Assembly: GCA_937922655.1 (NCBI GenBank)
Contig: CALAJH010000012.1
Coordinates: forward strand, 62,001 to 126,000
Origin: an uncultured Bacteroidia bacterium
GTDB lineage: Bacteria > Bacteroidota > Bacteroidia > J057 > CALAJH01
Reading direction: 5' to 3'
DNA: 64,000 bases
Of the stretch, positions 7,409 to 54,432 are shown one piece after another. The translations under genes and the position numbers were made by a program. Within the stretch, counting starts at the first letter, position 1; each line of letters opens with the position of its first letter. The notes under the pieces were generated by a model, which did no database searches, was not told the origin of the DNA, and saw only the letters and a program-made list of their open reading frames with translations.

Positions 7409-10000
7409 TTATTTAACCACGTGGATTTTTCTCGAAACGCTTGCCCCATCCATGGAAAGATTGAGCAGGTAAAGGCCTTCACTCAGAGCGTCCACCGGCA
7501 CGTCGTGAATTTGGTCGTCCAAAGTTGTTCGGTAAACAACGTTTCCGCGTACGTCCGTCAAAGTGGCAACCAACGGCATGCCGGTCGCGTCGTTTCGGCG
7601 AATTTCAAATTTGTCGCGAGCGGGATTGGGATAAACGGCAATCGAACGAAGCAGACGTTGGGCCGCCGTCGCGGTGGTATCGGTGTCTTGCGGCGTCTCG
7701 TATATGTCGGAGATGTCGATGGCCAATTCAAATTGGGTTTGAGTACAAGGCTTTCCGTTGATGTAGGCACGGAGGGTAACGGTATAAGCGGCGGTGTCGG
7801 CAAAATCGTGTGAAGCATTGACGCCCGTTGTGGTCTGTCCGTTGCCAAAATCCCATTCAAACGTAACCCCCTGAGTAACGGGAGACGTATTCACAAAATT
7901 GACGCGGTAAGGGCCTTGTCCTTGGTTGAAAACGGTTGTGGATGTGGTGAAGCTCGCTTGTAAAGGCCCCAATATTTGGATATTGAACGGTTGCGAATAG
8001 CTGACGGGATTGGAAGCGGCAACGCGAACTTGATAGTTGGCGCTAGGTTCCAAATCGATGGGAAGGGTAATCGTAACGTTTCCCGAGCCGGCGGGCGTTG
8101 CTATTATGGTCGGCGAAGCAAACGCGCCGGACGGAGAAGAGAGTTGAACTTGATAAGTGTTGCCTTGCGCGGGTTCGCCGTCGACGTCGATGTTCAAGGT
8201 AAAAGACTCGCCCGGGCAATAGGCTCCGTCGCCCGTCGTGGTCGTCGTGATGGTAATGTCGCCGCCGGTGGGGGTGATGTTGTTGGTCAGCCGATTGTTC
8301 GTAGCATTGAGAATCGGACGCTTGAGACGGTCTTGATTGAATCGCATGATGACGGGAACGACCGTAATATCGTTAGCCTTCCATGTTTCGGGGATGGTAA
8401 AGGTGTACGTGCGTTCGTACTGCGTCCCGGGGGTTACGGTTGCGGGAATGCTTTGCGCCGTTCCCCACGAACCGCCCAACATCGCACGCAGCACGTGTTT
8501 GTGGTTGTAACCGACGATGGGATTGCCCAAATTGTAAAACGGCGTGTTCGATTGATTGTTCATGTAGTTGGTTTGGTCGTAACCCGAACCCGTGCCCGTT
8601 ACGTTGTTTTCCACCAAAAATACATTGAAGCGAAAGTCGTCGGTGATTTCCGCGTAAAATTCACCACGAACCGTGATGCGAAACTGGCGGGTAGTCGGGT
8701 CGAATTGTTGTTCAAAGATGGAAACGGAGGCCGGCGACGGTACGTTGCGGTTTTCGTTGACGGCTTGGTTCCAGATGTTTACGCCATAACTGCCGTTGGC
8801 GTCCTCAACGCCGATACCCGTTATCCATGCCCACGGCATCTTGTATCGATTGACGGACAACTGCGGAAACGCATTCAATCCCAATCCCTGCATCGCTTGC
8901 ACGCCTTCGGGGATATCCAGATCGCTGGGACCGGCCATTTCGCCGTGAACGGCGATGGGGATGACGTCCTCGTTTTGGTTCACCACTTGATCCAAGTACA
9001 AGTGTCCCCATGGACAGTAACCGCACGTGTTGCTGGTGTATTCCTCCAAAACGATTTTCTTTTCGGGAATGAAGCCAAGCGCCACCAATGCGCTGCTTAA
9101 TGAATTGTCGTCGGGCGTGGGGTCTTCTTCACCGTTGGGCAACGAAACTCCGACCGTTATGTTGTAGGTTCCGGCGACGGTGATGTTCCAAAAGTTAGGG
9201 TGATTGACGGTGCGTGTTTGGTTGAAGGGAAGGGGTGGGTTGAGGTTAACTACCGCGGTTACGGGGGAGCCGCCGTTAATCGTATAGCTTAGGGTTACGC
9301 TGTTTAAGTTGGTGGAACCCGCGTTGCGAATCGTTGCTTGAATTTGGCGGTTGCCCAAACCGACGTACTCCGTCGTTTGTAAGTTGTAGCTCACCAAACC
9401 GACTTCGTTGGGCTGAGGTTTGAAAATCCTAACGTTGTCTATGGCTATACCGTCGTTCCAAGAATCGCTGTCCGAATAGCGAAAGCGAAAGCGCACGTTC
9501 GCGTTGCCAAGGTAAGCGGACAAATTATAGGATTTGTTTTGCCAGTTGTTGTCATCCTCGTCAAAGTCTTCCACCAGCGTATAATTTTCGCCGCCGTCGA
9601 TACTTACCCAAAGTTGGCCCACTTCGCGTTGTCCGTTGTTATAAAGCGATTTTTTGAAATACAATTGGAAGGTTAGGTAGGCTTCGTCCACGGTGGACAA
9701 ATCCACGGACGGAGTGGTCAGCAGGCATTCGCTGTTGTTTCCGTTTTGTCCCGCGTTGTCGTCGTTGACGGCGGCTACGCCCGAATTGCCCGGGATGGCA
9801 AGATAATTCGACGCCAAGTTGTTGGCCGCCCCAATGCGCCAACCCTGCCATCCGGACGTTACGAACGGCGTTGCCGTCCATCCCGAAGGCACTTGATTGG
9901 GCGTGTCGAAACCTTGCTCGAGCAGTACCTGAGCAGATATTGGCTTCAATTCGACAAAAAGCATTAACGTCAATAATAATGCTTTGTAGTAAATTTTCAT
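7409..10000 (-). CDS. secreted Omp28-related / PKD protein with T9SS type A sorting domain
   Basis: The start at 10000 gives MKIYYKALLLTLMLF, a signal peptide ending near ISAQ; the frame is open to 10042. Domain order of the 863-residue protein: an MAM-like cleaved-adhesin (choice-of-anchor J) domain at about residues 25-190; a CARDB-like domain (200-300); an Omp28-related thioredoxin-like domain starting near residue 310 with a CGYC pair in EEYTSNTCGYCPWG; an Ig-like region; a PKD domain (WDFGNGQTT) near 700; and a C-terminal sorting domain (SIAVYPNPARDKFEIRR). It should be exported by Sec and then T9SS and anchored at the surface. The substrate of the CXXC domain is unknown. A strong terminator follows. 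Confidence 0.88.
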   Translation of the reverse strand: MKIYYKALLLTLMLFVELKPISAQVLLEQGFDTPNQVPSGWTATPFVTSGWQGWRIGAANNLASNYLAIPGNSGVAAVNDDNAGQNGNNSECLLTTPSVDLSTVDEAYLTFQLYFKKSLYNNGQREVGQLWVSIDGGENYTLVEDFDEDDNNWQNKSYNLSAYLGNANVRFRFRYSDSDSWNDGIAIDNVRIFKPQPNEVGLVSYNLQTTEYVGLGNRQIQATIRNAGSTNLNSVTLSYTINGGSPVTAVVNLNPPLPFNQTRTVNHPNFWNITVAGTYNITVGVSLPNGEEDPTPDDNSLSSALVALGFIPEKKIVLEEYTSNTCGYCPWGHLYLDQVVNQNEDVIPIAVHGEMAGPSDLDIPEGVQAMQGLGLNAFPQLSVNRYKMPWAWITGIGVEDANGSYGVNIWNQAVNENRNVPSPASVSIFEQQFDPTTRQFRITVRGEFYAEITDDFRFNVFLVENNVTGTGSGYDQTNYMNNQSNTPFYNLGNPIVGYNHKHVLRAMLGGSWGTAQSIPATVTPGTQYERTYTFTIPETWKANDITVVPVIMRFNQDRLKRPILNATNNRLTNNITPTGGDITITTTTTGDGAYCPGESFTLNIDVDGEPAQGNTYQVQLSSPSGAFASPTIIATPAGSGNVTITLPIDLEPSANYQVRVAASNPVSYSQPFNIQILGPLQASFTTSTTVFNQGQGPYRVNFVNTSPVTQGVTFEWDFGNGQTTTGVNASHDFADTAAYTVTLRAYINGKPCTQTQFELAIDISDIYETPQDTDTTATAAQRLLRSIAVYPNPARDKFEIRRNDATGMPLVATLTDVRGNVVYRTTLDDQIHDVPVDALSEGLYLLNLSMDGASVSRKIHVVK

Positions 10001-26436: not shown

Positions 26437-26610
26437 TTTAATTTTAATCATTTTCGATGTTATTAAAATGGATTATTTTTGATGTCATTTTTAATATATT
26501 TTTAGGGCAAAATTGGTAATCTGTTCGTCGATATTGGCGTTTTCTTGTTACCTCGCCCACAATTCCGGAAAAAATTTACTTTGCATAATCTTATTGACCG
26601 CAAAATTAAC

Positions 26611-26618
26611 TAATTTTG
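26611..26618 (+). promoter_or_regulatory. -7 element TAATTTTG of the SOD-like operon
   Basis: Exact TAnnTTTG match, ending 29 nt before the ATG at 26648. TTG at 26594-26596 is a possible but closely spaced (14 nt) -33 box. It would drive the five-gene unit 26648-33908. Confidence 0.55.
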
Positions 26619-26647: not shown

Positions 26648-27274
26648 ATGAACAGAAGAGAATTTATTGTTTGCGGCGCCACTCTTGTGGCGACCGGTTG
26701 TATTGAGTTAAAGGCGTGTAACCTCGGTTTAGGCAAAGAGCCAAACGACCTCATGCCTCCTTTTTTTTCTTTGCCCGACCTTTCCCCTCATATCTCATTG
26801 CAAGCCAACCAAATTCATTACAATGAACATTTTGTGCCGGTATCGAATTATGTTCTTAACGAATATCCGTTGGTTTACGATGTTCGGCAATACAATTCGT
26901 ATTTCAATCATTGCCATTATTGGCAGGGATTATCGATAGAACCAAGCATACCCAACAATTTCGTTAAGGAAATAATTAAAGAATCATGGGGAAGTTTTTC
27001 CCGTTTATACAACGCAGTTAAGGAAAAATGTTTTGAAGTTACGGGTTCGGGTTGGCTTGTCGTTAAGGCTTTCGATTCACGCGAAATTGTTATCGATTTC
27101 ATTGGCAACGATGATGAAAAGATGCGTTCAAACTGCTTGATTTCAATAGATATATGGGAGCATGCGTATTACTTGGATTTTCGTTACGACGTGGAAGCAT
27201 ATATCGATTCAATTGTCAATTTAATAAATTGGGAAGTTGTCAACCAACGAGCAATGGCGGCACAATTAACTTAA
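26648..27274 (+). CDS. divergent Fe/Mn superoxide dismutase-like Tat lipoprotein
   Basis: 208 residues. The N-terminus has a twin-arginine motif (NRREF) and a lipobox ending at Cys18 (LVATGC), so export by Tat and lipidation is likely. The body aligns with Fe/Mn-SOD: FSLPDL, SPHISLQANQIHYNEH, NHCHYWQGLS, WGSF, TGSGW, IDIWEHAYYLDF and INWEVVNQR. All four metal ligands are kept: His57, His88, Asp168 and His172. His61 (gateway His30) is kept, but Tyr34 is Val65, and the outer-sphere Gln is absent from both possible sites (Ser84, Asp155). The two ligand histidines of the first domain are 31 residues apart against about 47-55 in normal enzymes, so the helical hairpin is shortened. Activity as a dismutase is uncertain. 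Confidence 0.8.
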   Translation: MNRREFIVCGATLVATGCIELKACNLGLGKEPNDLMPPFFSLPDLSPHISLQANQIHYNEHFVPVSNYVLNEYPLVYDVRQYNSYFNHCHYWQGLSIEPSIPNNFVKEIIKESWGSFSRLYNAVKEKCFEVTGSGWLVVKAFDSREIVIDFIGNDDEKMRSNCLISIDIWEHAYYLDFRYDVEAYIDSIVNLINWEVVNQRAMAAQLT

Positions 27275-27282
27275 CGCATACA

Positions 27283-27855
27283 ATGATTCGCTTTCTACCT
27301 AACTTCCTAAGCGCGACTTTGTGTCTGATTTTTTTATCCTGTTCCACGAATAAAGAGCTTAGTCAAATCGAAGCGGATTTACTGGCTCTTGAATGGGAAC
27401 GTCTTGGAAACGACATAATAAATATGCAGAAAGACCACCTTGTTTTGATTTCTCAAAGTAATAAAATTACCAAAATAATTTCTCCTTCGGGGAGTCAATA
27501 TGTAAACGGAGGATATTTTTCCAACGACTCGCTCAACAATATAATATTTGGATTTCATAGGTCACTGATTGACTTACAAGACTCTACCAATAAAATATAT
27601 AAAAAATATATGGACGAAAGAAAATCGTTTTCCATATATCACAGGAGAATAAAGTCCAATGAGCTGCAAAGCGATAAAAACGCAATGTTGAAATCACATT
27701 ATTACGGAGTTATTCGTCAATTAGATAAAAGCGTTACGAATATTCGAAATCGACTTACATCAACGATTGACGGCTATAACTCCGCTATTGCCATATTGAT
27801 AGAAACGTCTTCAAACGGCTATCAACTTGCCGGAAACAGATTGAAAATTCGATGA
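27283..27855 (+). CDS. lipoprotein, unknown function
   Basis: 190 residues from the ATG at 27283, 8 nt behind the SOD-like gene. The longer open frame to 27154 is antisense-like and lacks a signal. The signal peptide ends in LIFLSC, giving lipidation at Cys20. The mature part is mostly alpha-helical with many Lys, Asn and Ser and no recognised domain. It overlaps the subtilase ATG by four bases, so it belongs to the same operon and compartment (periplasmic face). Confidence 0.75.
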   Translation: MIRFLPNFLSATLCLIFLSCSTNKELSQIEADLLALEWERLGNDIINMQKDHLVLISQSNKITKIISPSGSQYVNGGYFSNDSLNNIIFGFHRSLIDLQDSTNKIYKKYMDERKSFSIYHRRIKSNELQSDKNAMLKSHYYGVIRQLDKSVTNIRNRLTSTIDGYNSAIAILIETSSNGYQLAGNRLKIR

Positions 27856-30800
27856 AGCCTATGAGTATGAAAAAACTTATTATCGGAGGTATCGCACTTA
27901 TTTTTTCCGGCCTCGCCGCAAATTATTCGTCGGCTCAAAAATTTCAATCTTATGAACAGGGTAAGATTGTCGTAAAATTCGTTGAAGATCCAAACCCTAA
28001 AGATTTAGAAAATTTTATCAGCGAGCATGGATTTTCTACTCATAGAAAACTTTTTGATGTGGGAAAAACTTTGCCAAATCATAATTCAAAAAGCAATATA
28101 TTAAGCGGAATATATGAATTCGGATATTCTTACCCGGAGGATCCATTGATACTTACTGAAAAAATTTCTAAACTAAACGAAGTAATTTATGCGGAACCTT
28201 CTTATATTTATTACCCATTTGACGAATACATACCCAACGATCCGTTGCTCAACCAACAGGGTTGGCTCAATAAAATTGAAGCTAAAGCGGGGTGGGCGAT
28301 TGACAAGGGAAATCCGGGTATCGTTATTGCAATTGTTGATGCCGGGATTCATTTTCGTCATCCTGATTTGATAGATAACGTCTATTACAATCTAGCGGAT
28401 CCTATCAATGGAATTGACGACGACGGCGATGGATTGATAGACAACTATCATGGTTGGGATTTGATTGGCGAAAGCAACTTAAATCCATTACCCGACAACG
28501 ATCCGCAACCTGTTGAAGGCGCTACAACTCAAAACATTGGTCACGGAACTTGGGTTGCAGGTATCGCATCGGCTACTCCCGACAATGAAATTGGAATCGC
28601 GGGAACGGGGTTTAACTGTAAGTTCTTGCCGATAAAGACTTCCGCCGATTTTGATTCCGAGGGCTTTGCTAGGATATATCGAAGTCCCGAAGCAATATTG
28701 ATAGCCGCCGAAATGGGTGCAACGATAATAAACTGTTCTTTTGGCAGTGTTGTGTATAGTCAATTAATGCAAGACGTTATAAAAGACGTAACTCTTCGTA
28801 AAAACGCCCTTGTCGTGGCGGCGGCGGGCAATGAACAAGCCGACAAAATCTTTTATCCCGCCGGCTATGATTACGTACTTTCCGTTACGGGAACGGACGC
28901 CAACGATGCGGTACAAACCACAAGAAATTTCAAGGTGGACGTTTCCGCACCGGGTTATGCAATTACAACTTCAGGTGTTGACGGCTATCACACCCAAGGG
29001 ATTTATACCTCGTATTCGGCGCCTATCGTCTCGGGAATTGCCGGAATAATACGTTCTTATTATCCCGGATTAAACGCCGTACAAGTCGCCGAACGCATCA
29101 GAACAACTGCAAAGGATATTGCCGCTGCCAACCCCGATCCGATATTTCAAAACAAGATAGGACGAGGCCAAGCCAATCTTTTTCGAGCCTTAACGATTAA
29201 CGGTCCGGCCATAAGAATAGTAAACTATACGGTTGCCGATGATAACGGAAATCCTATCGACCCGGGGGACAACCTTAATCTCAAATGTACTTTTATCAAC
29301 TACCTAAGTCCTGCAATTAATTTAAATGTCTCCATCTCCGTTTTAAATAATCCCCATGTATCCGTCATTGCCGGCGGAGGAAATATTGGACTTGGCAGTA
29401 TAAATACGTTGGCGACAAAATCGCAAAACAATCCTTTTCGATTGGCTGTTTCCCCAAATGCCCCGCCGGACTTAACCGTTCAAATACGAATTCGGTATCA
29501 GGATGGACTTTATGACGATTTTGAGATTATATCTTTTGTCATTAATCCTACATACCTTGATGTAATTACCACCAATATTCAAACGAGTGTAGGCAGTACG
29601 GGGAAATGGGGATTTAACGATTCTCCAACGAACATGCTTGGCAAGGGATTGGTGATTAACGGAAGAAACTTATTGTATCAAGGAGGAATTATTTTCGGAA
29701 GAAGCACATTGCAGGGAATTACAATCGTTGATAATTTACAGCAAACCTCCACTTCATTAAACAACATCCTTCAGCCAATCCAACTCATTTCAGGTTCTTT
29801 TCCGGGACCAAAGTCCGATAAATATACCATCGCTCGCTTTACGGATAATTTGGCTGATTCCGCAAACAAAATCAATTTAAATATAAAAGACGAGACTTTT
29901 GCATTTGATCGTTCACCGAATGATAATTTTATCATCAAACGATACGTTGTTAGAAATCGAAATCCTTTTTTAATTCAAAATTTCTACGCGGGTTTGTTTG
30001 CAGATTGGAATGTGAATCCTTTGGTCGGTGGAGACAATACGCGTTTTGACGACCAAAATTCTACTCCATACGTTTATGCGTCATCCGGCGAAGACAGTGT
30101 TCATGTAGCTATTGTTTCGTTGGAACATCCGAATAAACTAAACGTATATTTCTCTAAATCCTCGGAATTCGATTTTTCGGATTCGCTTAAGTTTCGTGCG
30201 ATAAGCAACGGTATCAATTTCACCGAATTAAACGGTGAGGATGTTGTCCAAACCGTTGCCGTCGGTCCTTTAAATCTTCTTCCCTTCGATTCAGTTGTCG
30301 TTGCGTTTGCCGTGGTTTGCGGTAATGGAAAAGCGGATTTATTGACAAACGTGAATAGGGCACGGCAAAAATATTACTGTATACTCAATGGTTCGAACAT
30401 AAGCACTACTTTTCCTACCGAATATGCGGCTTGTGATTCCATCGAATTAAACGTCGCAACATCGGGAGCTGTTCGGTATCGTTGGGAAGGCAATAATGTG
30501 GAAAATCCTATGCTCAAGGTATACCAATCAGGCATCTATTCCGTTGTTCTAACCGACGCCAACGATTGCGAAGTACGTAAAGATATTTCGGTCGCCATTA
30601 CCAATTTGCAGCCGAATCCAAACGTTTCTAGAACCGAAGTGGATTTGTCGCAAGCGGACAAGACCGTCGCGGTTTCGGACAGTACCGTCGGTGCGATATC
30701 ATGGCGCTGGGATTTCGGCAACGGATACGGATCGCTAAATTCCAACGCTTCCACAACTTACACCGAACCGGGTTTTTACAATCTAACCCTTGTAGTTTCC

Positions 30801-31097
30801 GATGGAATTTGCGAAAAGACTTTTCAAACCGGAATTACCGTATTTGGTATTAATCAAAGGTTTAATGACGTCAACAACTCGTTATATGTTTATCCCAACC
30901 CCTCCTCGGGTAAATTTACACTGCATTCCCCCTACCCTATTAAACAGGTAAAAGTTAGAAATACAATGGGAATCGAAATTATTTCCGAATGTAATAATTC
31001 TACGATTTATCTTGATAAACAACCTAACGGGCTGTATTTTATGGAAGTTTATTTCAATGAAAGTGTAGTTCATTTTCCAATTATTCTCCAAAAGTAA
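27852..31097 (+). CDS. secreted subtilisin-like serine protease (S8) with PKD and T9SS sorting domains
   Basis: 1081 residues; ATG 27864 is an alternative that shortens the N-terminus by four residues. Signal peptide ending near SSAQ, a propeptide-like region (30-125), then the S8 domain with Asp163 (AIVDAG), His231 (GHGTWVAG) and Ser387 (YTSYSAPIVSG); the residue before TS is Tyr where Gly is usual. The oxyanion Asn lies in IINCSFGS. Long beta domains and a PKD domain (WRWDFGNGYG near 955) follow, then a type A sorting domain (YVYPNPSSGKFTL). It should be secreted through the T9SS. Overlaps the upstream lipoprotein gene by ATGA and precedes a prolyl oligopeptidase by 10 nt. Confidence 0.93.
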   Translation: MKPMSMKKLIIGGIALIFSGLAANYSSAQKFQSYEQGKIVVKFVEDPNPKDLENFISEHGFSTHRKLFDVGKTLPNHNSKSNILSGIYEFGYSYPEDPLILTEKISKLNEVIYAEPSYIYYPFDEYIPNDPLLNQQGWLNKIEAKAGWAIDKGNPGIVIAIVDAGIHFRHPDLIDNVYYNLADPINGIDDDGDGLIDNYHGWDLIGESNLNPLPDNDPQPVEGATTQNIGHGTWVAGIASATPDNEIGIAGTGFNCKFLPIKTSADFDSEGFARIYRSPEAILIAAEMGATIINCSFGSVVYSQLMQDVIKDVTLRKNALVVAAAGNEQADKIFYPAGYDYVLSVTGTDANDAVQTTRNFKVDVSAPGYAITTSGVDGYHTQGIYTSYSAPIVSGIAGIIRSYYPGLNAVQVAERIRTTAKDIAAANPDPIFQNKIGRGQANLFRALTINGPAIRIVNYTVADDNGNPIDPGDNLNLKCTFINYLSPAINLNVSISVLNNPHVSVIAGGGNIGLGSINTLATKSQNNPFRLAVSPNAPPDLTVQIRIRYQDGLYDDFEIISFVINPTYLDVITTNIQTSVGSTGKWGFNDSPTNMLGKGLVINGRNLLYQGGIIFGRSTLQGITIVDNLQQTSTSLNNILQPIQLISGSFPGPKSDKYTIARFTDNLADSANKINLNIKDETFAFDRSPNDNFIIKRYVVRNRNPFLIQNFYAGLFADWNVNPLVGGDNTRFDDQNSTPYVYASSGEDSVHVAIVSLEHPNKLNVYFSKSSEFDFSDSLKFRAISNGINFTELNGEDVVQTVAVGPLNLLPFDSVVVAFAVVCGNGKADLLTNVNRARQKYYCILNGSNISTTFPTEYAACDSIELNVATSGAVRYRWEGNNVENPMLKVYQSGIYSVVLTDANDCEVRKDISVAITNLQPNPNVSRTEVDLSQADKTVAVSDSTVGAISWRWDFGNGYGSLNSNASTTYTEPGFYNLTLVVSDGICEKTFQTGITVFGINQRFNDVNNSLYVYPNPSSGKFTLHSPYPIKQVKVRNTMGIEIISECNNSTIYLDKQPNGLYFMEVYFNESVVHFPIILQK

Positions 31098-31107
31098 ACG
31101 CTATAAA

Positions 31108-33162
31108 ATGTTATTGACATTGCTAACTTTAATAAGTGCAACATACGCACAAAAATTAGAGTATCCTTATACACCCACTCGTCCCTTGGTATATCAGTCG
31201 GCCGGAATTTACATTACCGACCCATACGCATGGCTTGAAGACAAAGAAAGCGCCGAAACCATTGAGTGGTCCAGACAACAACACGACTTTACTCTAAAAT
31301 GGTTGAAGGAAAATGGAACGCGAATAAAAGGTTTACACGAGGAATTAAAGGCGATTATCGACCGGGATTATAAAGGCCCGATACAATTTTACGGCAATCG
31401 TCAATTCTTTTTTTCTCAAAAATCCGGCGAACCTCAAAGAAAGCTTTATACGATAATCGATGGAAAGGAGGTTTTATTGTTTGACCCGGTCGAGATAGAT
31501 CCTACGGGTAATTCCGCAATTACTTATACCGTTTTTTCCAAAAATGGAGACAAAGTAGCCATTGGAGTTCAAACGAAAGGAAACGAAATTTCCGATTGTT
31601 ACATTTATGATACAAAAACCGGACGGCAAATTGGAAATCCTTTGCCGTCCGCCAACTCTTTTAGATGGGCCAACGACGAGAACTATGCGTACATTGTTCG
31701 CAGAACCATGGAAATGATTAAGAAACAACTTCCCTTGCCCGTATACAAACATAAAATCGGTACCGACCCCACTCAGGACGAATTTATTGTTCAACCTAAC
31801 GACGCCAAAGACTTTGCCTCCGTTTTTGAGTTCGAAGATTGTCCTTACACCTTTTTAAGCGCCGGTGATTTTTACAGCACTACATTAAAAATTAGACCCA
31901 CCGATTCCAACGGTGAATGGAAAACGATATACGCGAGCGACAAGTTTTCCGTGTCCCCGTTGGCAAAAAACGGAAAGGTTTACTTTTTCACCAACGACAA
32001 AGCTCCGCTTTTCAAATTAATGGTGGCAAGTTTTGATAGTTTGCAGGCAATGTACTGGGAAGATTTTTTGCCCGAATCCAATACAAAGCTTGAAAATTTC
32101 ACCGTTACAAACGACTATGTTATAGCGCACTATAAATCGGAATTGCAAAGCGTACTTTATGCTTACGATGTAAACACCCGGGTGCCTCGTGAAATCGCGT
32201 TACCCGAAAACGGCGTGGTTTCTTCATTGACTTATCACAAAGAGTCAAACAAAGTTTACCTTGGATTAAATACGTTTACCTCACCCGCAAAGGTATATGA
32301 ACTTGACGGAAAGTCATTGACGTGGAAATTGCATTACGAAGACAAATCCCCCGTAGATTTATCCGATGTGGAAAGTAGATTGGAATATTTTAACTCCAAA
32401 GACGGTACGCGCGTACCTATCTTTATTGTCCATAAAAAAGGTTTGCAACGCAACGGTATGAATCCAACGTTACTGTACGGATACGGCGGCTTTAACATAG
32501 GAATGTCTCCTTCTTATCTTTCCACAATGGCGCCGTTCGTCAAACGAGGTGGGGTTTATGCCATCGCCTGTTTAAGGGGCGGAAACGAATATGGAGAAAC
32601 TTGGCATCAAGCGGGAATGCGTGAAAAGAAACAAAACGTTTTCGACGACTTTATCGCCGCCGCCGATTTTTTGGTTTCCACCAATTATACTTCTTATCAT
32701 TTGTTGGCGTTGCGCGGAGGTTCCAACGGCGGATTGTTGATTGGCGCGGTAACGACGCAAAGGCCCGATATATGCAAAGCCGCCATTTGTGCCGTGCCTC
32801 TCTTGGATATGATTCGCTTTCATAAATTTCTTATTGCCCGGTATTGGATTCCCGAGTACGGCGACCCTGACAATCACAGCGACGCACGTTTCATATTAAG
32901 ATATTCCCCTTATCACAATATACGCATGGGGGTAAATTTGCCAACGATGTTGGTGATTGCCGGTGAAAACGATACTCGCGTTGACCCGCTTCACGCCAAA
33001 AAATTCGTCGCCGCGTTGCAAAACAATGTTGGACAAATCAATCCCATTTTGCTTTACATGGATTACGACAGCGGACACGGTCCCGGAAAATCAACCGCTA
33101 AAACCATAGAAACCGCAGAGGCACAACTCGAATTTATTATGAACCAACTTAACATGAAATGA
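31108..33162 (+). CDS. prolyl oligopeptidase family serine peptidase (S9A), exported
   Basis: 684 residues with a signal peptide (MLLTLLTLISATYAQ), so it acts in the periplasm or outside, unlike the cytosolic enzymes of animals. It cleaves short peptides after proline. An N-terminal cap and seven-bladed propeller (about 70-420) precede the alpha/beta hydrolase domain with Ser539 (GGSNGG), an Asp in AGENDTRVDPLHA and a His in DSGHGPG. Together with the upstream subtilase it forms a protein-digestion pair. The stop overlaps kdsB by ATGA. Confidence 0.95.
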   Translation: MLLTLLTLISATYAQKLEYPYTPTRPLVYQSAGIYITDPYAWLEDKESAETIEWSRQQHDFTLKWLKENGTRIKGLHEELKAIIDRDYKGPIQFYGNRQFFFSQKSGEPQRKLYTIIDGKEVLLFDPVEIDPTGNSAITYTVFSKNGDKVAIGVQTKGNEISDCYIYDTKTGRQIGNPLPSANSFRWANDENYAYIVRRTMEMIKKQLPLPVYKHKIGTDPTQDEFIVQPNDAKDFASVFEFEDCPYTFLSAGDFYSTTLKIRPTDSNGEWKTIYASDKFSVSPLAKNGKVYFFTNDKAPLFKLMVASFDSLQAMYWEDFLPESNTKLENFTVTNDYVIAHYKSELQSVLYAYDVNTRVPREIALPENGVVSSLTYHKESNKVYLGLNTFTSPAKVYELDGKSLTWKLHYEDKSPVDLSDVESRLEYFNSKDGTRVPIFIVHKKGLQRNGMNPTLLYGYGGFNIGMSPSYLSTMAPFVKRGGVYAIACLRGGNEYGETWHQAGMREKKQNVFDDFIAAADFLVSTNYTSYHLLALRGGSNGGLLIGAVTTQRPDICKAAICAVPLLDMIRFHKFLIARYWIPEYGDPDNHSDARFILRYSPYHNIRMGVNLPTMLVIAGENDTRVDPLHAKKFVAALQNNVGQINPILLYMDYDSGHGPGKSTAKTIETAEAQLEFIMNQLNMK

Positions 33163-47161: not shown

Positions 47162-47179
47162 AAATTGTCGTGACAATTT
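47162..47179. promoter_or_regulatory. inverted repeat next to the -33 box, candidate operator
   Basis: AAATTGTC (47162-47169), two spacer bases GT, GACAATTT (47172-47179): perfect 8-bp arms, one base before the TTTG -33 box of the giant adhesin gene. The position suits a dimeric activator or repressor. Confidence 0.55.
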
Positions 47180-47180
47180 C

Positions 47181-47209
47181 TTTGTGTTGGCGGAAATTGA
47201 TTAACTTTG
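47181..47209 (+). promoter_or_regulatory. promoter of the giant adhesin gene
   Basis: -33 TTTG at 47181-47184, 17-nt spacer, -7 TAACTTTG at 47202-47209. A leader of roughly 50 nt precedes the ATG at 47263. Confidence 0.75.
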
Positions 47210-47262
47210 CGGCGACGCGTGTCGTGTTTCGCGGCCCGTGTCGTTATTTTAGCAAATACACA

Positions 47263-50200
47263 ATGAATATCGTGCGAAACCCAAGCATCGTCCTCGTTGC
47301 CGCCTTGATGTTGGCGTCGTCGGGGTTGCGGGCCGGCGACCTTTGCGGCTCCCGCCCGTCCGGTTTCCGGCTTTCCGCCGACGCATTCGTCCCCAACGTT
47401 GGTCAGGTTGTTTCCCTTACCAACGAAAAAGTACATTTTTTCGCCTCTATCGACGGCGGACGAGTCTACTTTCTCGACAACAAAGTGGCTTTTGTTTTCG
47501 ATGGTTACGAAACCGACCCGCGAACCGGCGAAGAAGTTCAGACCTACGCTTACCGCACCGACCTTATTTTTCCCGGCGCGTCGGCCCACCCCGCCATTGT
47601 CCCGAACGAAACTTTACCTTACGCTTACCACTATTATCTCTCCGATTTTAAAGCCGAAAACGTTCCCGCCTATGCCTCCGTCGCTTATCGCAATCTTTGG
47701 CCTGGCGTGGACTTGGTTTTCCGACTCAAAGACGGAACTTTAAAATACGATTTTGTCCTTGCGCCCGGCGTTTCCCACAACGTCGTCAAAATTCAATACT
47801 CCGATTACCAATCGTTGAAAATCAACGACGACGGACAAATCGTTTTGACTTATCCCGGTGGTGAATTGCGGGAAATGGCGCCCGTTTCCTGCGTGCTTTC
47901 CGAACGAAAAGGCCAAAAATTGTGCTTGGAGGTCGAGTCCCGGTACCTTATGTCCTCGTCCGGCGAGATTTCTTTCGACGTCAAGGGACGCAAAAAAAAC
48001 AACGCCTTAATCATCGACCCGTTGGTACGGGCGCGGGCGACGTTCTACGGCGGAACCTCCAACGACAACCTTTCCGCCGTCGTCATTGACGGTGAAAACG
48101 CGGTGGTTGCCGCGGGGTTCACCCGTTCGACCAACAACTATCTGACCCAAAACGGTTATCAGCCGGTGCAACGCGGACTTTCGGACGTGATATTGGTGAA
48201 GTTCGATGAAAACGGCGCCCGGCGTTGGGCGACGTTCGTTGGCGGTCCGGGCGACGACGCCGCCTACGCCATCGCCGCCGACCCCTTAGGAAACGTTTAT
48301 TTGACGGGTTCGACGCGCGGCAACGGCTATCCCGAATTCAACCCGACGCAAACCACGGGTCTGGGCAACGAGGACGTCGTCATTTCCTCTTTTGCGCCCA
48401 ACGGCACGATTCGTTTTTCGACCCGCTTCGGCGGTTCCAATTCCGACCGCGGTTTGGGCATTGCCTTCGACCGTCTCAACAACCGCGTCGTCGTTGCGGG
48501 CAACACCTCGTCCGCCAACCTTTACGAAGCCGCCAATGTTTATGGCGGCAATCGCGACGGCTTTGTCGCCGTATTTTCCGACGAGGGTGGATTTTTGTGG
48601 AGCTCTTACTTTGGTTCCGAACGCGACGATAGGGCCAACGCCGTAACCGTCGATGCGGAGGGAAAAATTTACGTCGTCGGAGGAACCGCAAGCAACGCCT
48701 TGCCCGGCATCGACGGCAACTATCAATCCGTAAATGCCGGCGGCACGGACGCTTTCCTTGCCGTGCTTGGAGACGATGGACAAATTCTGCGTTCGACGTT
48801 TTTTGGCGGAGCCGATTTGGACGAGGCGCTTTCCGTCGCATTGACCCCCAACCGTATTGCCGTCGCGGGGCGTACGCGGAGCGCCAACCTGCCCGTTTCG
48901 GGCGACGCCCGTCAAGCCTCCAACAACGGCGGCGGCGACGGATTTTTCACTCTTTTTGACTACGAATTGTCGGGCGTTCCTTATTCGACCTATTTGGGCG
49001 GCGCCGCCGCCGATGAACTTACCTCGGTACGCGCCGTCGGCAACCGGGTCTATTTGGCGGGGAGAACCCTGAGCACCGATTTTCCCGTTCTTGTCAACGA
49101 CGCCACGCCCCCCAATCAATCGAGCAACGCGGGTCTGGAAGACGCACTCTTAGCCGAATTTAATTTGAACGGCCCCTCGCCGTCGCTCGTCAATGCGTTT
49201 TATTACGGCGGGGCGCGTAACGACGCCGCACTCGGTTTGGCCGCCGTCACGTCCTACGTCGCCGTCGTCGGAACGACCCGCTCCATCAATTTTCCCATTA
49301 ATTTCGCTCAATCGCCGTTTAATGCTTTCAAGGGCGTCGAAGACGGATTTTTGGCCGTTTACAACACCGGTTCCTGCCCTCCCCCCGCCGCCATCGCTCT
49401 TGCGGAATACCAAGCTTTTTGCGACAGTGTTCGCCTTCGTTTTTCCGGCGGCACGGCTCCTTACACCGTTCAAATTCTTACGCCCGACAGCGTTTTAAGA
49501 AGTTTTGAGTCCGACCTAAACGGCAGAATACATTTTGTAAATTACGGTACGGGTTTTTACGATTTGGTTTCGATTTTGGACGCCGACTTGTGCGTCGGCG
49601 ATCCGAACGCGGAACAGGGCGGATTCACTTTCAACGCCGACCTACTGCTTTCCGCAGGCGTCGACAACGTGGACAACTTGTTGTGTGCCGGCGATTCCAT
49701 GGGAACCATTGAAGTTTCGGCCTCGGGCGGTACGCCTCCGTACACCTACGAATGGACGGGGCCGAACGGTTTTGTCGCGTTTAACGAAGATATTTCCGGA
49801 CTTTCGGCGGGTATATACGTTTTGACCGTCAGGGATGCGCAAGGTTGTACTTTTGTTTTGAGCGAAAGCGTACAAAGTCCCGAACCTCTCGCGGCCGAAG
49901 TGATTAACAACATCGTCGAGCTCAACTGCGCCAATCCTACGGGCGAGCTTTCGGCCAACGCCATAGGCGGTGCGGGCGGTTACGTTTTCACTTGGCAAGG
50001 CCCCAACAATTTTTCGGCCGCGGGTTCGACCATTATCGTTTCCGAAGGCGGCGCCTATACGCTGTTCGCTTCCGACGCCAACGGTTGTGCGGCCACCGCT
50101 TCGACTCTTGTTTCGGCGGACTTTGGCAATTTGTCCATCGACGCGACAACCAACGCCACTTCTTGCGGCGCCGCCACCGACGGAAGAGTCATTGCCGTCG

Positions 50201-53200
50201 TTACGGGCGGTTCGGCGCCTTACAGCGTTACTCTTGCCTTGCAGCCCAACGGGGATATCTACCCTCTCACTTCCCAAAACAACAACGCTTATACCTTCGA
50301 AAACCTACCCGCCGGTCAGTATCGGATTAGGGTCGTCGATGCCGATGGATGCTCGCGCAGTATATTGCGTGACGTGTTGGTCGGCGAAGGGACGTTAAGC
50401 ATAAACATGGGCGGCGGCCCCGTGGCTTGTTTCGGAGAACTTACCGGCACCGTAAATGCCACGGTCGTCGGCGGAACACCACCGTACATTTACGCTTGGA
50501 CCATCCAAAACGGCGATACGGTATCGGCGGGTCCGGGCGCGCCTTTCAGCCAACTTGTCAATCGCCCCGCCGGCCTGTACCGTGTTACCGTTACCGACGC
50601 GGCGGGCTGTCAAAAATCGGGTGAATTTACCGTTACCCAACCCGACGCGCCGTTGTCGGTGAACATTACCACCCAAGCCAATGTACAGTGTTTCGGTCAG
50701 GCAACGGGGGGACTGGCGATAACCGTTGCCGGCGGCGCCTCGGAATTCAATTATTACGTTTCTTGGACGGGACCGAACAACTTCACATCCACCGCTACGG
50801 CCATTAACGGTTTGCAAGCCGGCGAGTATACGGCACTTGTGACGGACATTAACGGATGTACGGCAACCGCTTCCGCAACCATCACCCAACCTTCCGCTCC
50901 CGTAACCATCAATTTGGGACAAATCGTGCCAAGTATTTGCGGCGGCTCGGGCGGAGCCATATTAATTAACCCTTCGGGCGGGGTGGCGCCTTATACCTAC
51001 CAATGGTCTACGGGTGCGACGACCCAAAATCTTTCCAACGTTCCCGCCGGGCAATACTTCGTTGTCGTTCGCGACGCCAACGGTTGCACCGTCGCCGATA
51101 CGTTCTTGGTCAATCAATTGGGTACAACCTTGCTTGCGACGTTCACTACGCCGGTGGACGCGACGTGTTACGACTTCAACAACGGCGCGGTAAGCATTGT
51201 GGCCGCCGGCGGGCAACCGCCTTACCAATACGCTTGGCGACGCAACGGCCAGCCCGTTTCACTGCTTGGCTCAAGTTTGGTAGGCATTCCGGGCGGGAAT
51301 TATTCGGTTACCGTTACCGACGCTTATGGGTGCTCGTTTGAAATTCCGTTTATTCCCGTGCGTCAGCGTTCGCAAATCGTAATCGAAAATGTCGAGATTA
51401 CCCCCCCATCGTGTTCCGGCGGCGGCGACGCCCAAATCATTTTGGCCAACATATCCGGAGGCAACTACCCGAACGAAAATCCAAACTACCGCCTAAGTGT
51501 TGCGTTTGCCGATACGGTCTTGAATTTTGAGCCCGTTAACGTTGATATTTTCGTTTTTAACTCGGGCGTTGCAGGCTTACCTATCGAAGCGGGAACGTAT
51601 ACGTTGACGGTTGTCGCGCTGTCTCCCGACAGCTGCTCACGAACGTGGCAGATTGAGATACCCCAGACGGAAGCCTTCGGCGTTCAAGCCGTCCGTGCCG
51701 ACGCCACGGGTTGTGGCCCCGACAACTATGGCTCGCTTGCCGTTTCCCCTTTTGGCGGTACTCCCGATTTTTCCGTTCGTGTGTACGGATTGGCCGACAA
51801 TACGTACGACGTTACATTGACGGTAGGCCTAGGCGAAACGGCACCGTTTACCCAAATTCGACCCGGTTTCGTTGCCTTTCGTGCGGACAACGCCGAAGGA
51901 TGCTTCGTAGCGGATACGGTGTTTATCGGCGCCTCCGACGTTCCATTCGACGTCGAAATCGAATTGAGCACTTGCACGAACTCCACGGATGGAAAAATCA
52001 GGGTTTCGAGCGCCAACGCCGTTGTTTATACCCTTTATCGCGACAACGCCACCGTAGTCGAAACTTCGCCTAACGCCGCGAGTTATGAATTTTTGAATTT
52101 GGATGAAGGAACATATTACATTCTTGCCCGCGACGGCGATTGTTTCGGCGCTCAAATCGTTGAATTGGATTTTCCCGAATTCGAGTGGCAAACGCAATTG
52201 ACCAATCCCGCGACTTGCAACCACTCCTTCGACGGAAAGATTCTGACCTTGGCCACGGGCTACAACGACATTCGCTACACCGTTTTGGACACGAACGGCA
52301 CCGTCGTTTTCCCGACTCAAATCGGGGGCGTGTTTGAGGGCGTTCCCGCAGGGATTTACATCGTTCGCGCTTCTCGTCAGTCGCAACCCTCGTGTTTTAT
52401 CGAGTATCGCGATACCGTCGAATACAACATAAAACTCGACATTTTAAGCGTGGAGCCTTCGATTCAATCCTGTTCGGGGGCGGGCGCGGGTTCGATATAC
52501 GTTGAGGCCGTTGTGAACGATAGTGCACAAATCATATATTACACTCTGCTTGAAAACAATGAAATCGTGGCCGGACCGCAAACGAATTCGTGGTTTATTC
52601 CCGTAGCGCCGGGAAATTATACCGTTCGGGTGGGTTTGGATACCACGGGAGTCTGTTACGACGAACGCGAGGCGCAAGTCGGTATCGGAACTTCATTGAC
52701 CTTGACGCTAAGCGACGGCGTCTTAATCCCCGTTCGTTGTATCGCCCCTTACAATTACGATTCCATTATCGCCAACTTAACCATCAACCCGGAGCCTTCC
52801 CCCGTACCCAATATTGATTATACGCTTTATGACGAAAACGACTCGCTGATAATGACTTTGGGGACGGCCTTGGGATTAAATTATACGTTCAACGACCAAA
52901 ACGTAACAAACTACAACAATATTGAACCGGGCGAATACCGCGTTCGTGCGACGGTGGCCGATGGTTTGCTTGCCGGTTGTTATGCCGAAGCGAAATTGGA
53001 AATACGACCGTTTATTTCCGAGCCGGTCGAAGTCTCCGTTAGTGCGGTTACGCCCGCGTTGGCTTGCGGTTACGACAATGCCGACGGCGACGCAAGCGGC
53101 GCCATTGCGGCAATGGCTTCCGGACAATCGAACAATACGAGCGCTGAAATTTGGTATCGTTTGGAAAGCACCGATGGATTTATAGTTCGTCTATGGCAGC

Positions 53201-54432
53201 TGGGACAAGACTTTGAAAATCTTTTACCCGCCAACTACGTGGTACGGGCCGCGTTTTTTACGGGCAATCCAAACGATCCCGAAATCTGCGATGCAGGCGG
53301 GGGGGGATGCGAGGATACGACGCTCGTACGCGTCGGCATCCGAAAACCTCGGGTCTTAGCGCCATTAAACAACGCCTATTCCGTTACGCCTACCACGGGC
53401 GTCGCGCCCTATAACGACATTACAACGCCGAACTTGGGTTCAAACCGTGCAAGAATTTACTGGCGTTCCGACGGAGGATACGAGGGGGGATTTGCGGGTG
53501 AGGGCGGTAACCCGGCACCTGCCGGCGCCTCGAACATTTATCGCATCAGCTATCGGGTTGTTGGTTCCGGGAGTTGGCAATCCGTCGTAGTCCCGAACGC
53601 CAACCTAACCAACACCGTCGCCGACGGCGTAGTGTTGTGGTGGGAATTGACGGGGTTACAACCGCAAACGATGTACGAATACCGAATCCAAACCCGTAGT
53701 TGCAGCTCTTCCGTATTCACTCCCGCATTCACTTCCACATGCGGTCCGCAAACGGGTTCTACGGACGTGGGCGGTATTTTCTCCGAATGGGCGACCGCTT
53801 CGAACTATCGATTTACAACGGGCGTAAGCGCGGCGTGCGACACGGCAAGTTACGTCGAAGTTCAAACCGATGTTGTCGGCGGTTCGAATATCGTCGCCGA
53901 CGTGTTTTGGCCCGGCGACCAGCCCAACGCCACGTGCTATATTTTGGAGCTTAGGTATGAAGGTTCTCCCACAACGTTGAGACGGGTTGCCACGGCATTT
54001 TCGGGGCCGGGCGTACAAAGCTATCGCTTTGAAAATTTGGAAGACGGTACGGACTACGAGGTGCGGGTTTACACGATATGCGGCGGTCCTTGTCCGTCGA
54101 CGAACGTTGCGCCGCCGCCGGCCAATACGCCGAACCGAACGCAAATTTTCACCACCCCGTTTTTCCGCATGGGCCAACGGTCGCTTTCCGGCTTTACGGT
54201 TTATCCCAATCCCAACAAAGGCGAATTTACTTTGAGTTTTGATTCGCAGACGGAAGGGACGGGAACCCTGTCGCTGACCGACGTTACGGGTCGCACGGTG
54301 TTTGTACGCACGCATACGGTGGAACGCGGCCGCAACGTATTCAACGTCTTGGAAAACCTTTCGGCCGGACTCTATCTGGTTCGGTTCAATTTCGGAGACG
54401 CGGTTCTTATTGCGAAAATCAACGTGGAATAA
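47263..54432 (+). CDS. giant SprB-repeat cell-surface adhesin with T9SS type A sorting domain
   Basis: 2389 residues from the ATG at 47263, which gives a clear signal peptide (MNIVRNPSIVLVAALMLASS); the open frame to 47170 crosses the promoter. Domain order: DUF7948-like region beginning with FVPNVGQV (about 35-250); SBBP-type beta-propeller repeats (about 255-690; e.g. FYGGTSNDNLSAVVID, YLGGAAADELTSV); SprB repeats (about 815-1390; e.g. GGTPPYTYEWTGPNGF, GGTPPYIYAW); irregular Cys-containing Ig-like repeats to about 2030; fibronectin III-like domains near 2055-2290 (ELRYEGSP, GTDYEVRVYTICGG); sorting domain from about 2305 (YPNPNKGEFTLSF). SprB repeats are those of gliding-motility adhesins. 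No sprC/D/F or PorP-like partner is adjacent. Confidence 0.93.
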   Translation: MNIVRNPSIVLVAALMLASSGLRAGDLCGSRPSGFRLSADAFVPNVGQVVSLTNEKVHFFASIDGGRVYFLDNKVAFVFDGYETDPRTGEEVQTYAYRTDLIFPGASAHPAIVPNETLPYAYHYYLSDFKAENVPAYASVAYRNLWPGVDLVFRLKDGTLKYDFVLAPGVSHNVVKIQYSDYQSLKINDDGQIVLTYPGGELREMAPVSCVLSERKGQKLCLEVESRYLMSSSGEISFDVKGRKKNNALIIDPLVRARATFYGGTSNDNLSAVVIDGENAVVAAGFTRSTNNYLTQNGYQPVQRGLSDVILVKFDENGARRWATFVGGPGDDAAYAIAADPLGNVYLTGSTRGNGYPEFNPTQTTGLGNEDVVISSFAPNGTIRFSTRFGGSNSDRGLGIAFDRLNNRVVVAGNTSSANLYEAANVYGGNRDGFVAVFSDEGGFLWSSYFGSERDDRANAVTVDAEGKIYVVGGTASNALPGIDGNYQSVNAGGTDAFLAVLGDDGQILRSTFFGGADLDEALSVALTPNRIAVAGRTRSANLPVSGDARQASNNGGGDGFFTLFDYELSGVPYSTYLGGAAADELTSVRAVGNRVYLAGRTLSTDFPVLVNDATPPNQSSNAGLEDALLAEFNLNGPSPSLVNAFYYGGARNDAALGLAAVTSYVAVVGTTRSINFPINFAQSPFNAFKGVEDGFLAVYNTGSCPPPAAIALAEYQAFCDSVRLRFSGGTAPYTVQILTPDSVLRSFESDLNGRIHFVNYGTGFYDLVSILDADLCVGDPNAEQGGFTFNADLLLSAGVDNVDNLLCAGDSMGTIEVSASGGTPPYTYEWTGPNGFVAFNEDISGLSAGIYVLTVRDAQGCTFVLSESVQSPEPLAAEVINNIVELNCANPTGELSANAIGGAGGYVFTWQGPNNFSAAGSTIIVSEGGAYTLFASDANGCAATASTLVSADFGNLSIDATTNATSCGAATDGRVIAVVTGGSAPYSVTLALQPNGDIYPLTSQNNNAYTFENLPAGQYRIRVVDADGCSRSILRDVLVGEGTLSINMGGGPVACFGELTGTVNATVVGGTPPYIYAWTIQNGDTVSAGPGAPFSQLVNRPAGLYRVTVTDAAGCQKSGEFTVTQPDAPLSVNITTQANVQCFGQATGGLAITVAGGASEFNYYVSWTGPNNFTSTATAINGLQAGEYTALVTDINGCTATASATITQPSAPVTINLGQIVPSICGGSGGAILINPSGGVAPYTYQWSTGATTQNLSNVPAGQYFVVVRDANGCTVADTFLVNQLGTTLLATFTTPVDATCYDFNNGAVSIVAAGGQPPYQYAWRRNGQPVSLLGSSLVGIPGGNYSVTVTDAYGCSFEIPFIPVRQRSQIVIENVEITPPSCSGGGDAQIILANISGGNYPNENPNYRLSVAFADTVLNFEPVNVDIFVFNSGVAGLPIEAGTYTLTVVALSPDSCSRTWQIEIPQTEAFGVQAVRADATGCGPDNYGSLAVSPFGGTPDFSVRVYGLADNTYDVTLTVGLGETAPFTQIRPGFVAFRADNAEGCFVADTVFIGASDVPFDVEIELSTCTNSTDGKIRVSSANAVVYTLYRDNATVVETSPNAASYEFLNLDEGTYYILARDGDCFGAQIVELDFPEFEWQTQLTNPATCNHSFDGKILTLATGYNDIRYTVLDTNGTVVFPTQIGGVFEGVPAGIYIVRASRQSQPSCFIEYRDTVEYNIKLDILSVEPSIQSCSGAGAGSIYVEAVVNDSAQIIYYTLLENNEIVAGPQTNSWFIPVAPGNYTVRVGLDTTGVCYDEREAQVGIGTSLTLTLSDGVLIPVRCIAPYNYDSIIANLTINPEPSPVPNIDYTLYDENDSLIMTLGTALGLNYTFNDQNVTNYNNIEPGEYRVRATVADGLLAGCYAEAKLEIRPFISEPVEVSVSAVTPALACGYDNADGDASGAIAAMASGQSNNTSAEIWYRLESTDGFIVRLWQLGQDFENLLPANYVVRAAFFTGNPNDPEICDAGGGGCEDTTLVRVGIRKPRVLAPLNNAYSVTPTTGVAPYNDITTPNLGSNRARIYWRSDGGYEGGFAGEGGNPAPAGASNIYRISYRVVGSGSWQSVVVPNANLTNTVADGVVLWWELTGLQPQTMYEYRIQTRSCSSSVFTPAFTSTCGPQTGSTDVGGIFSEWATASNYRFTTGVSAACDTASYVEVQTDVVGGSNIVADVFWPGDQPNATCYILELRYEGSPTTLRRVATAFSGPGVQSYRFENLEDGTDYEVRVYTICGGPCPSTNVAPPPANTPNRTQIFTTPFFRMGQRSLSGFTVYPNPNKGEFTLSFDSQTEGTGTLSLTDVTGRTVFVRTHTVERGRNVFNVLENLSAGLYLVRFNFGDAVLIAKINVE

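Follow-up and report, generated by a model that had tools for sequence, protein, structure and literature searches.

The window analysed here, a stretch of 64,000 nucleotides from an uncultured Bacteroidia bacterium, carries a gene string headed by an ATG-initiated open reading frame for a protein with the metal ligands of Fe/Mn superoxide dismutases (SODs). The features of this locus, in window coordinates, are:

26580..26618 (+): promoter-like TTTG-N27-TAATTTTG (Bacteroidota type), 29 bases ahead of the ATG, its spacer at the long end of the allowed range; a pattern match only
26648..27274 (+): Fe/Mn-SOD-like lipoprotein, 208 aa; ligands H57, H88, D168 and H172, second-sphere sites V65, S84, D155 and S166
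26648..26701 (+): Tat-type lipoprotein signal peptide, N-R3-R4-E-F6 and lipobox V-A-T-G-C18 read in the sequence; TatC in the genome
26798..26911 (+): helical hairpin of reduced length, spanning residues 51-88, with H57 and H88 31 residues apart; PF00081 below cut-off
26960..27250 (+): SOD C-terminal domain, residues 105-201; PF02777, 77.8 bits
27283..27855 (+): small predicted lipoprotein, 190 aa, 8 bases past the SOD-like stop codon; no relatives found
27852..31097 (+): subtilase with a PKD domain and a weak Por_Secre_tail match; ATGA overlap with the lipoprotein gene
31108..33162 (+): prolyl oligopeptidase (S9), the next gene in the string

An open reading frame at 33159, which overlaps the stop of the oligopeptidase gene, we take by eye to be CMP-KDO synthetase-like.

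The region 26648–27274 is open in one frame only, with a normal GC3, and the two alternative frames across it are rich in stops and contain neither a SOD-like peptide nor a hidden hairpin, ruling out a hidden frameshift as the cause of the missing hairpin described below. The protein begins M1-N-R3-R4-E-F6, followed by the lipobox L13-V-A-T-G-C18, so that the NRREF twin-arginine motif and the Cys18 lipobox are both present as the initial annotation of this DNA had them. The RR-x-F motif and lipobox Cys of a Tat lipoprotein are joined by a Tat translocase in the same genome (TatC, 208.7 bits), and the prediction of an exported lipoprotein is well supported by the sequence. Promoter-like patterns of the form TTTG-N(17-27)-TANNTTTG number 14 in the window, where shuffling gives an expectation of 3.9 and 0 of 100 shuffles reached 14.

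No relatives of the 190-aa lipoprotein were found in 60 genomes. Relatives of the subtilase have different neighbours, and a conserved SOD-subtilase operon was rejected, as no SOD-like gene was present upstream of six relatives from the order. A second subtilase paralogue of the same genome (G000:C30:32038-34464) has one in-frame TAA in the matched stretch and is possibly a broken gene. Elsewhere in the window, positions 47170–54432 (+) encode a secreted protein of 2420 aa in which SprB repeats, SBBP repeats and DUF7948 are joined by a Por_Secre_tail sorting domain, resembling a type IX secretion adhesin.

Fold and metal site of the SOD-like protein

Profile searches matched PF02777 clearly (77.8 bits, 7.3e-22, cut-off 20.9), whereas PF00081, the N-terminal alpha-hairpin, left only a trace below threshold (14 bits versus a cut-off of 27). 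The NCBIfam SOD models matched the C-terminal part only, far under their curated cut-offs; a PDB sequence search returned 158 sequences, with SODs making up all of the matches listed, and PHROGs gave no match. An AlphaFold2 model with 46 sequences (mean pLDDT 78.4, pTM 0.74) fell below a pLDDT of 50 in the first 35 residues only and had block means above 80 at the ligands. The model, guided by the SOD alignment, adopted a complete SOD fold in which the shortened hairpin is still present and residues 51–72 form one unbroken helix, and it superposed on Escherichia coli FeSOD (1isa) with a Z of 21.7 at 1.9 Å (167 of 168 model residues in the matched range) and on many solved SODs with Z values of 20–22. 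With its complete fold and the ligands in confident parts, the model does not speak against a single site formed by the four ligand residues. Of the features that mark a SodFM protein by descent, PF02777, the four ligands and the SOD fold are therefore present, and a PF00081 match above cut-off is absent.

The four residues that the initial annotation had equated with the Fe/Mn-SOD ligands, H57, H88, D168 and H172, fall in columns holding H, H, D and H in all or nearly all relatives. The protein also keeps the hydrophobic-cage residues Y91, W92, W136 and W170, the gateway His61 (the His30 equivalent) and the dimer-bridge residues E171, H172 and Y175; thus, of the features expected of a catalytic SOD, the gateway His30, the Trp cage and the Glu dimer bridge are found, but Tyr34 and the water-coordinating Gln/His are not. 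V65 lies at +8 from H57, a column occupied by Tyr in 105 of 105 ordinary relatives. An alternative MAFFT alignment opens a 3-residue gap after His61 and puts F62 in the Tyr column, which lacks Tyr on either alignment (Val65 or Phe62). In ordinary SODs His26, His30 and Tyr34 follow one another at i, i+4 and i+8, and this spacing, together with the unbroken model helix, makes Val65 the better match to Tyr34, in keeping with its original assignment.

The absence of Gln from both the FeSOD and the MnSOD sites, likewise proposed earlier, was borne out. The FeSOD Gln69 site, four residues before H88, is occupied by S84, and N154-D155 is aligned by HMMER under the N-Q of the MnSOD site. A further position, overlooked in the initial annotation, is Ser166, two residues ahead of the Asp ligand, where aligned relatives have Gly, Ala, Thr, Val or Cys. 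The spacing from H57 to H88 is 31, compared with 46–56 in ordinary relatives and 29 in one phage clade, which agrees with the shorter first hairpin noted previously; 15–25 residues have been removed, from a hairpin whose alignment is uncertain.

All five SodFM subfamilies have been described with Gln or His at one of two sites (Sendra et al., PMC10172142). When the diagnostics of SodFM1–5 are applied, namely the Gln/His position and the residue X(D-2), here Ser166, the SOD-like protein fits none of the described combinations. It resembles the Bacteroidota SodFM1 proteins, including the one of its own genome (L001), in fold, four ligands, Trp cage, His30 and Glu/His dimer bridge, and the exported SodFM1 proteins (L005, L022, L025 and L038) in having a signal for Tat or Sec export that includes a lipobox-like Cys. 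By contrast, SodFM1 proteins keep Tyr34, a C-terminal Gln and a spacing of 50–55, where the SOD-like protein has Val, Ser/Asp and 31.

Relatives and tree placement

For a survey of the second-sphere residues, SODs from Bacteroidia genomes and IMG/VR contigs were reduced to 111 non-redundant sequences. Every ordinary relative carries Tyr eight residues beyond the first ligand and fills one of the two water-coordinating sites with Gln or His; the SOD-like protein alone among the 111 lacks both, and no other relative has Asp at the C-terminal Gln site. Among the 25 columns conserved in at least 90% of the 105 ordinary relatives it keeps 17, including all four ligands, W136, W170 and E171, while the losses include Tyr34, the NN motif and the Gly/Gln site. 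At a conservation of 95% or more it keeps 15 of 22 columns, compared with 25% identity over all columns, indicating that retention is concentrated at the metal site. First- and second-sphere residues are kept in 9 of 9 cases at 25% consensus identity, for which the naive chance is about 4e-6.

Three very divergent SOD-like proteins, L035 (about 7689–8423), L036 (about 7734–8372) and L193 (about 1285–1851), have disturbed hairpins and altered HxxxH motifs. A C-terminal-site His is aligned in two of them, L036 and L193, and L035 has one nearby; L035, from Bacteriovoracaceae, has a Tat-like signal and likewise lacks Tyr34. Three genomes of the class have exported SODs that are longer at the C terminus by about 110–130 aa (L006, L007 and L013).

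No close relative came out of a pattern scan of about 85,000 species genomes, where the best hit had 33% identity, and about 800 Bacteroidota genomes held no match to the hairpin and none above 39% identity. Searches of 22 genomes of the order and of overlapping sets of about 395 genomes each from the class, the phylum and the nearest relatives, in which its own genome was the only one of its family, with plasmids and viral contigs, gave no orthologue, none exceeding 39% identity and none having the same hairpin. The best matches were ordinary exported SODs with 31–39% identity over the C-terminal part. A homologue with normal Tyr and Gln close enough to mark this copy as recently decayed was not among them. 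In the tree, the SOD-like protein has no supported place, its long branch making placement unsure.

The short-hairpin phage proteins are L163, L154, L161, L179, L186, L197, L222 and L223 (IMG/VR, about 1150–2010), with 29 residues between the first two ligands, close to the 31 seen here. They form a clade of their own (SH-aLRT 95), keep Tyr34 and a C-terminal His and lack the gateway His30, unlike the SOD-like protein. The latter is scored at 95 bits by the ordinary-SOD profile versus 67 bits by the phage short-hairpin profile and does not join the phage proteins in the tree, so true kinship with them was rejected, with the placement unsure on so long a branch, and the shared short hairpin is probably convergent. 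The one phage short-hairpin protein compared with PHROG, L163, had no match. In other IMG/VR sequences (L066–L138, e.g. L079:1363-3219) an ordinary SOD domain forms the N-terminal part of open reading frames of about 365 to 750 aa, and for L079, the one checked with both Pfam and PHROG, the remainder beyond the SOD domain had no match in either.

Candidate roles of a site lacking Tyr34 and Gln

As the ligands are kept and both metal-cycling residues are lost, the protein probably still holds metal but is no longer a fast dismutase. The explanation that we favour, at even confidence, is a diverged exported Fe/Mn-SOD paralogue, which the sequence and the model suggest to be anchored and metal-binding, with a near redox-inert site, and poor or dead as a dismutase. 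Such a protein would cross the membrane folded, through Tat, become lipid-anchored outside the cytoplasm, dimerise and bind Mn or Fe. Lacking the Tyr34–Gln hydrogen-bond relay, it would hold the metal mainly in the reduced state (M2+), and fast dismutation would then be gone or down by orders of magnitude. Asp155 would have a similar effect, as it accepts a hydrogen bond at a place normally taken by a donor, Gln or His, and the main role would be that of an anchored metal-binding protein. The setting is in line with this explanation: the genome has an ordinary cytoplasmic SOD at another locus, a TatC and no Cu/Zn-SOD, normal lipoprotein-type SODs with Tat signals occur in the order, and the intact gene, with its normal GC3, stands first in a tight string.

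Mutants of known SODs offer the nearest parallels. In the Q69E mutant of E. coli FeSOD the metal potential is strongly raised. The model matches Q69E (2nyb) with the same Z of 21.7 as wild-type FeSOD (1isa), at 2.1 and 1.9 Å, respectively, and both Q69E and, by its predicted position, the Asp155 of the SOD-like protein put a carboxylate near the metal-bound water; by analogy, Asp155 might act like the Q69E carboxylate, though from the other site, as the mutant carries its carboxylate at the N-terminal site and Asp155 sits at the C-terminal one, with Tyr34 absent too. Catalysis is severely disturbed when His30, Tyr34 or Gln143 is mutated (PMC5836015), and in human MnSOD Gln143Asn (9nr0, 9nsj), which like the SOD-like protein has lost Gln with its ligands intact, kcat is down about 130-fold and the metal is frozen in the reduced state (PMC12576686). 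Unlike the protein described here, Gln143Asn is a laboratory mutant, keeps Tyr34, and is tetrameric and mitochondrial. A more specific form of the favoured explanation, in which Asp at the place of Gln keeps the metal divalent in a redox-locked exported lipoprotein with a non-dismutase task, is tentative and seems to us on the doubtful side.

One of the two main alternatives is that the protein still works as an exported dismutase through a rewired proton relay, in which Asp155, His90 or a nearby Tyr (e.g. Tyr68) replaces Gln and Tyr34 and gives a slower but real activity. The retained ligands, cage, gateway His61 and dimer residues would fit such an enzyme, as would its setting: the genome has one ordinary cytoplasmic SOD (L001), and a search for a Cu/Zn-SOD, the other candidate for an exported enzyme, found none, which leaves the SOD-like protein as the only exported SOD-like protein seen there. 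Ordinary SODs exported through Tat or Sec are found widely in the class, among them lipoprotein-type proteins of the same order that have a Tat signal and normal residues (L005, L022 and L025), and the water-coordinating residue has shifted during SOD evolution (Gln N-terminal, Gln C-terminal, His C-terminal; PMC10172142). However, Asp at the Gln site occurs in no other relative, and the cost of Gln143Asn alone is about 130-fold (PMC12576686), whereas here Tyr34 is lost too, making a rewired enzyme unlikely.

The fast evolution and truncated hairpin that count against the favoured explanation also fit decay, the other main alternative, in which a paralogue under relaxed constraint, once an exported SOD and now without that function, gains substitutions and a hairpin deletion before its metal site has worn away. 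The SOD-like protein has the longest branch of the tree, 4.33 changes per column versus a median of 0.33 (13-fold); half of its N-terminal domain is eroded (PF00081 at 14 bits), no searched set contained an orthologue and the gene string is not conserved. Against this, the reading frame is intact with a normal GC3, the gene lies first in a tight string and follows a promoter-like motif, and the losses are concentrated in the relay and the hairpin while every ligand and cage residue survives, so that we regard decay, too, as improbable.

A SOD fold can serve outside simple dismutation, as in the plastid RNA polymerase PAP9/FSD2, which is among the structural matches, and yeast mitoribosomal mS42/mS43 have recruited it for structure; unlike these, the SOD-like protein keeps all ligands and shows no sign of a larger complex. 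A structural or pro-oxidant use, in which the fold partners the co-encoded lipoprotein and subtilase or the metal makes oxidants, fits the tight spacing to the orphan lipoprotein (8 bases) and the ATGA overlap with the secreted subtilase, and an oxidising Bacteroidota enzyme, the lignin-attacking MnSOD of Sphingobacterium T2, which is reported to act through hydroxyl radical (PMC10795516), is also among the structural matches, but it is very unlikely given that the string is not conserved beside subtilase relatives, that the Sphingobacterium enzyme is described with an ordinary SOD active site and that there is no direct sign of interaction.

The favoured explanation, a diverged and anchored metal-binding paralogue, thus retains what the initial annotation had proposed on lipoprotein export, a SOD-type metal site and impaired dismutase activity, all supported by sequence, model and published mutants, while the suggested roles of metal scavenger or oxidant sensor found no positive evidence. 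To our knowledge, Fe/Mn-SODs are held to require the Tyr34–Gln relay, and nearly all work on its role has used laboratory mutants; a literature search on degenerate SOD-fold proteins in bacteria found nothing directly on point. As one sequence from a lineage that is poorly sampled, the protein counts as a lead rather than an established new family. If the redox-locked form of the explanation is true, this protein would be the first natural member of the SOD fold with neither Tyr34 nor any water-coordinating Gln/His. A natural relay-less protein with its metal site and dimer contacts in place would make it possible to ask directly what the site does without the relay, and whether extracytoplasmic SODs were turned to other uses.
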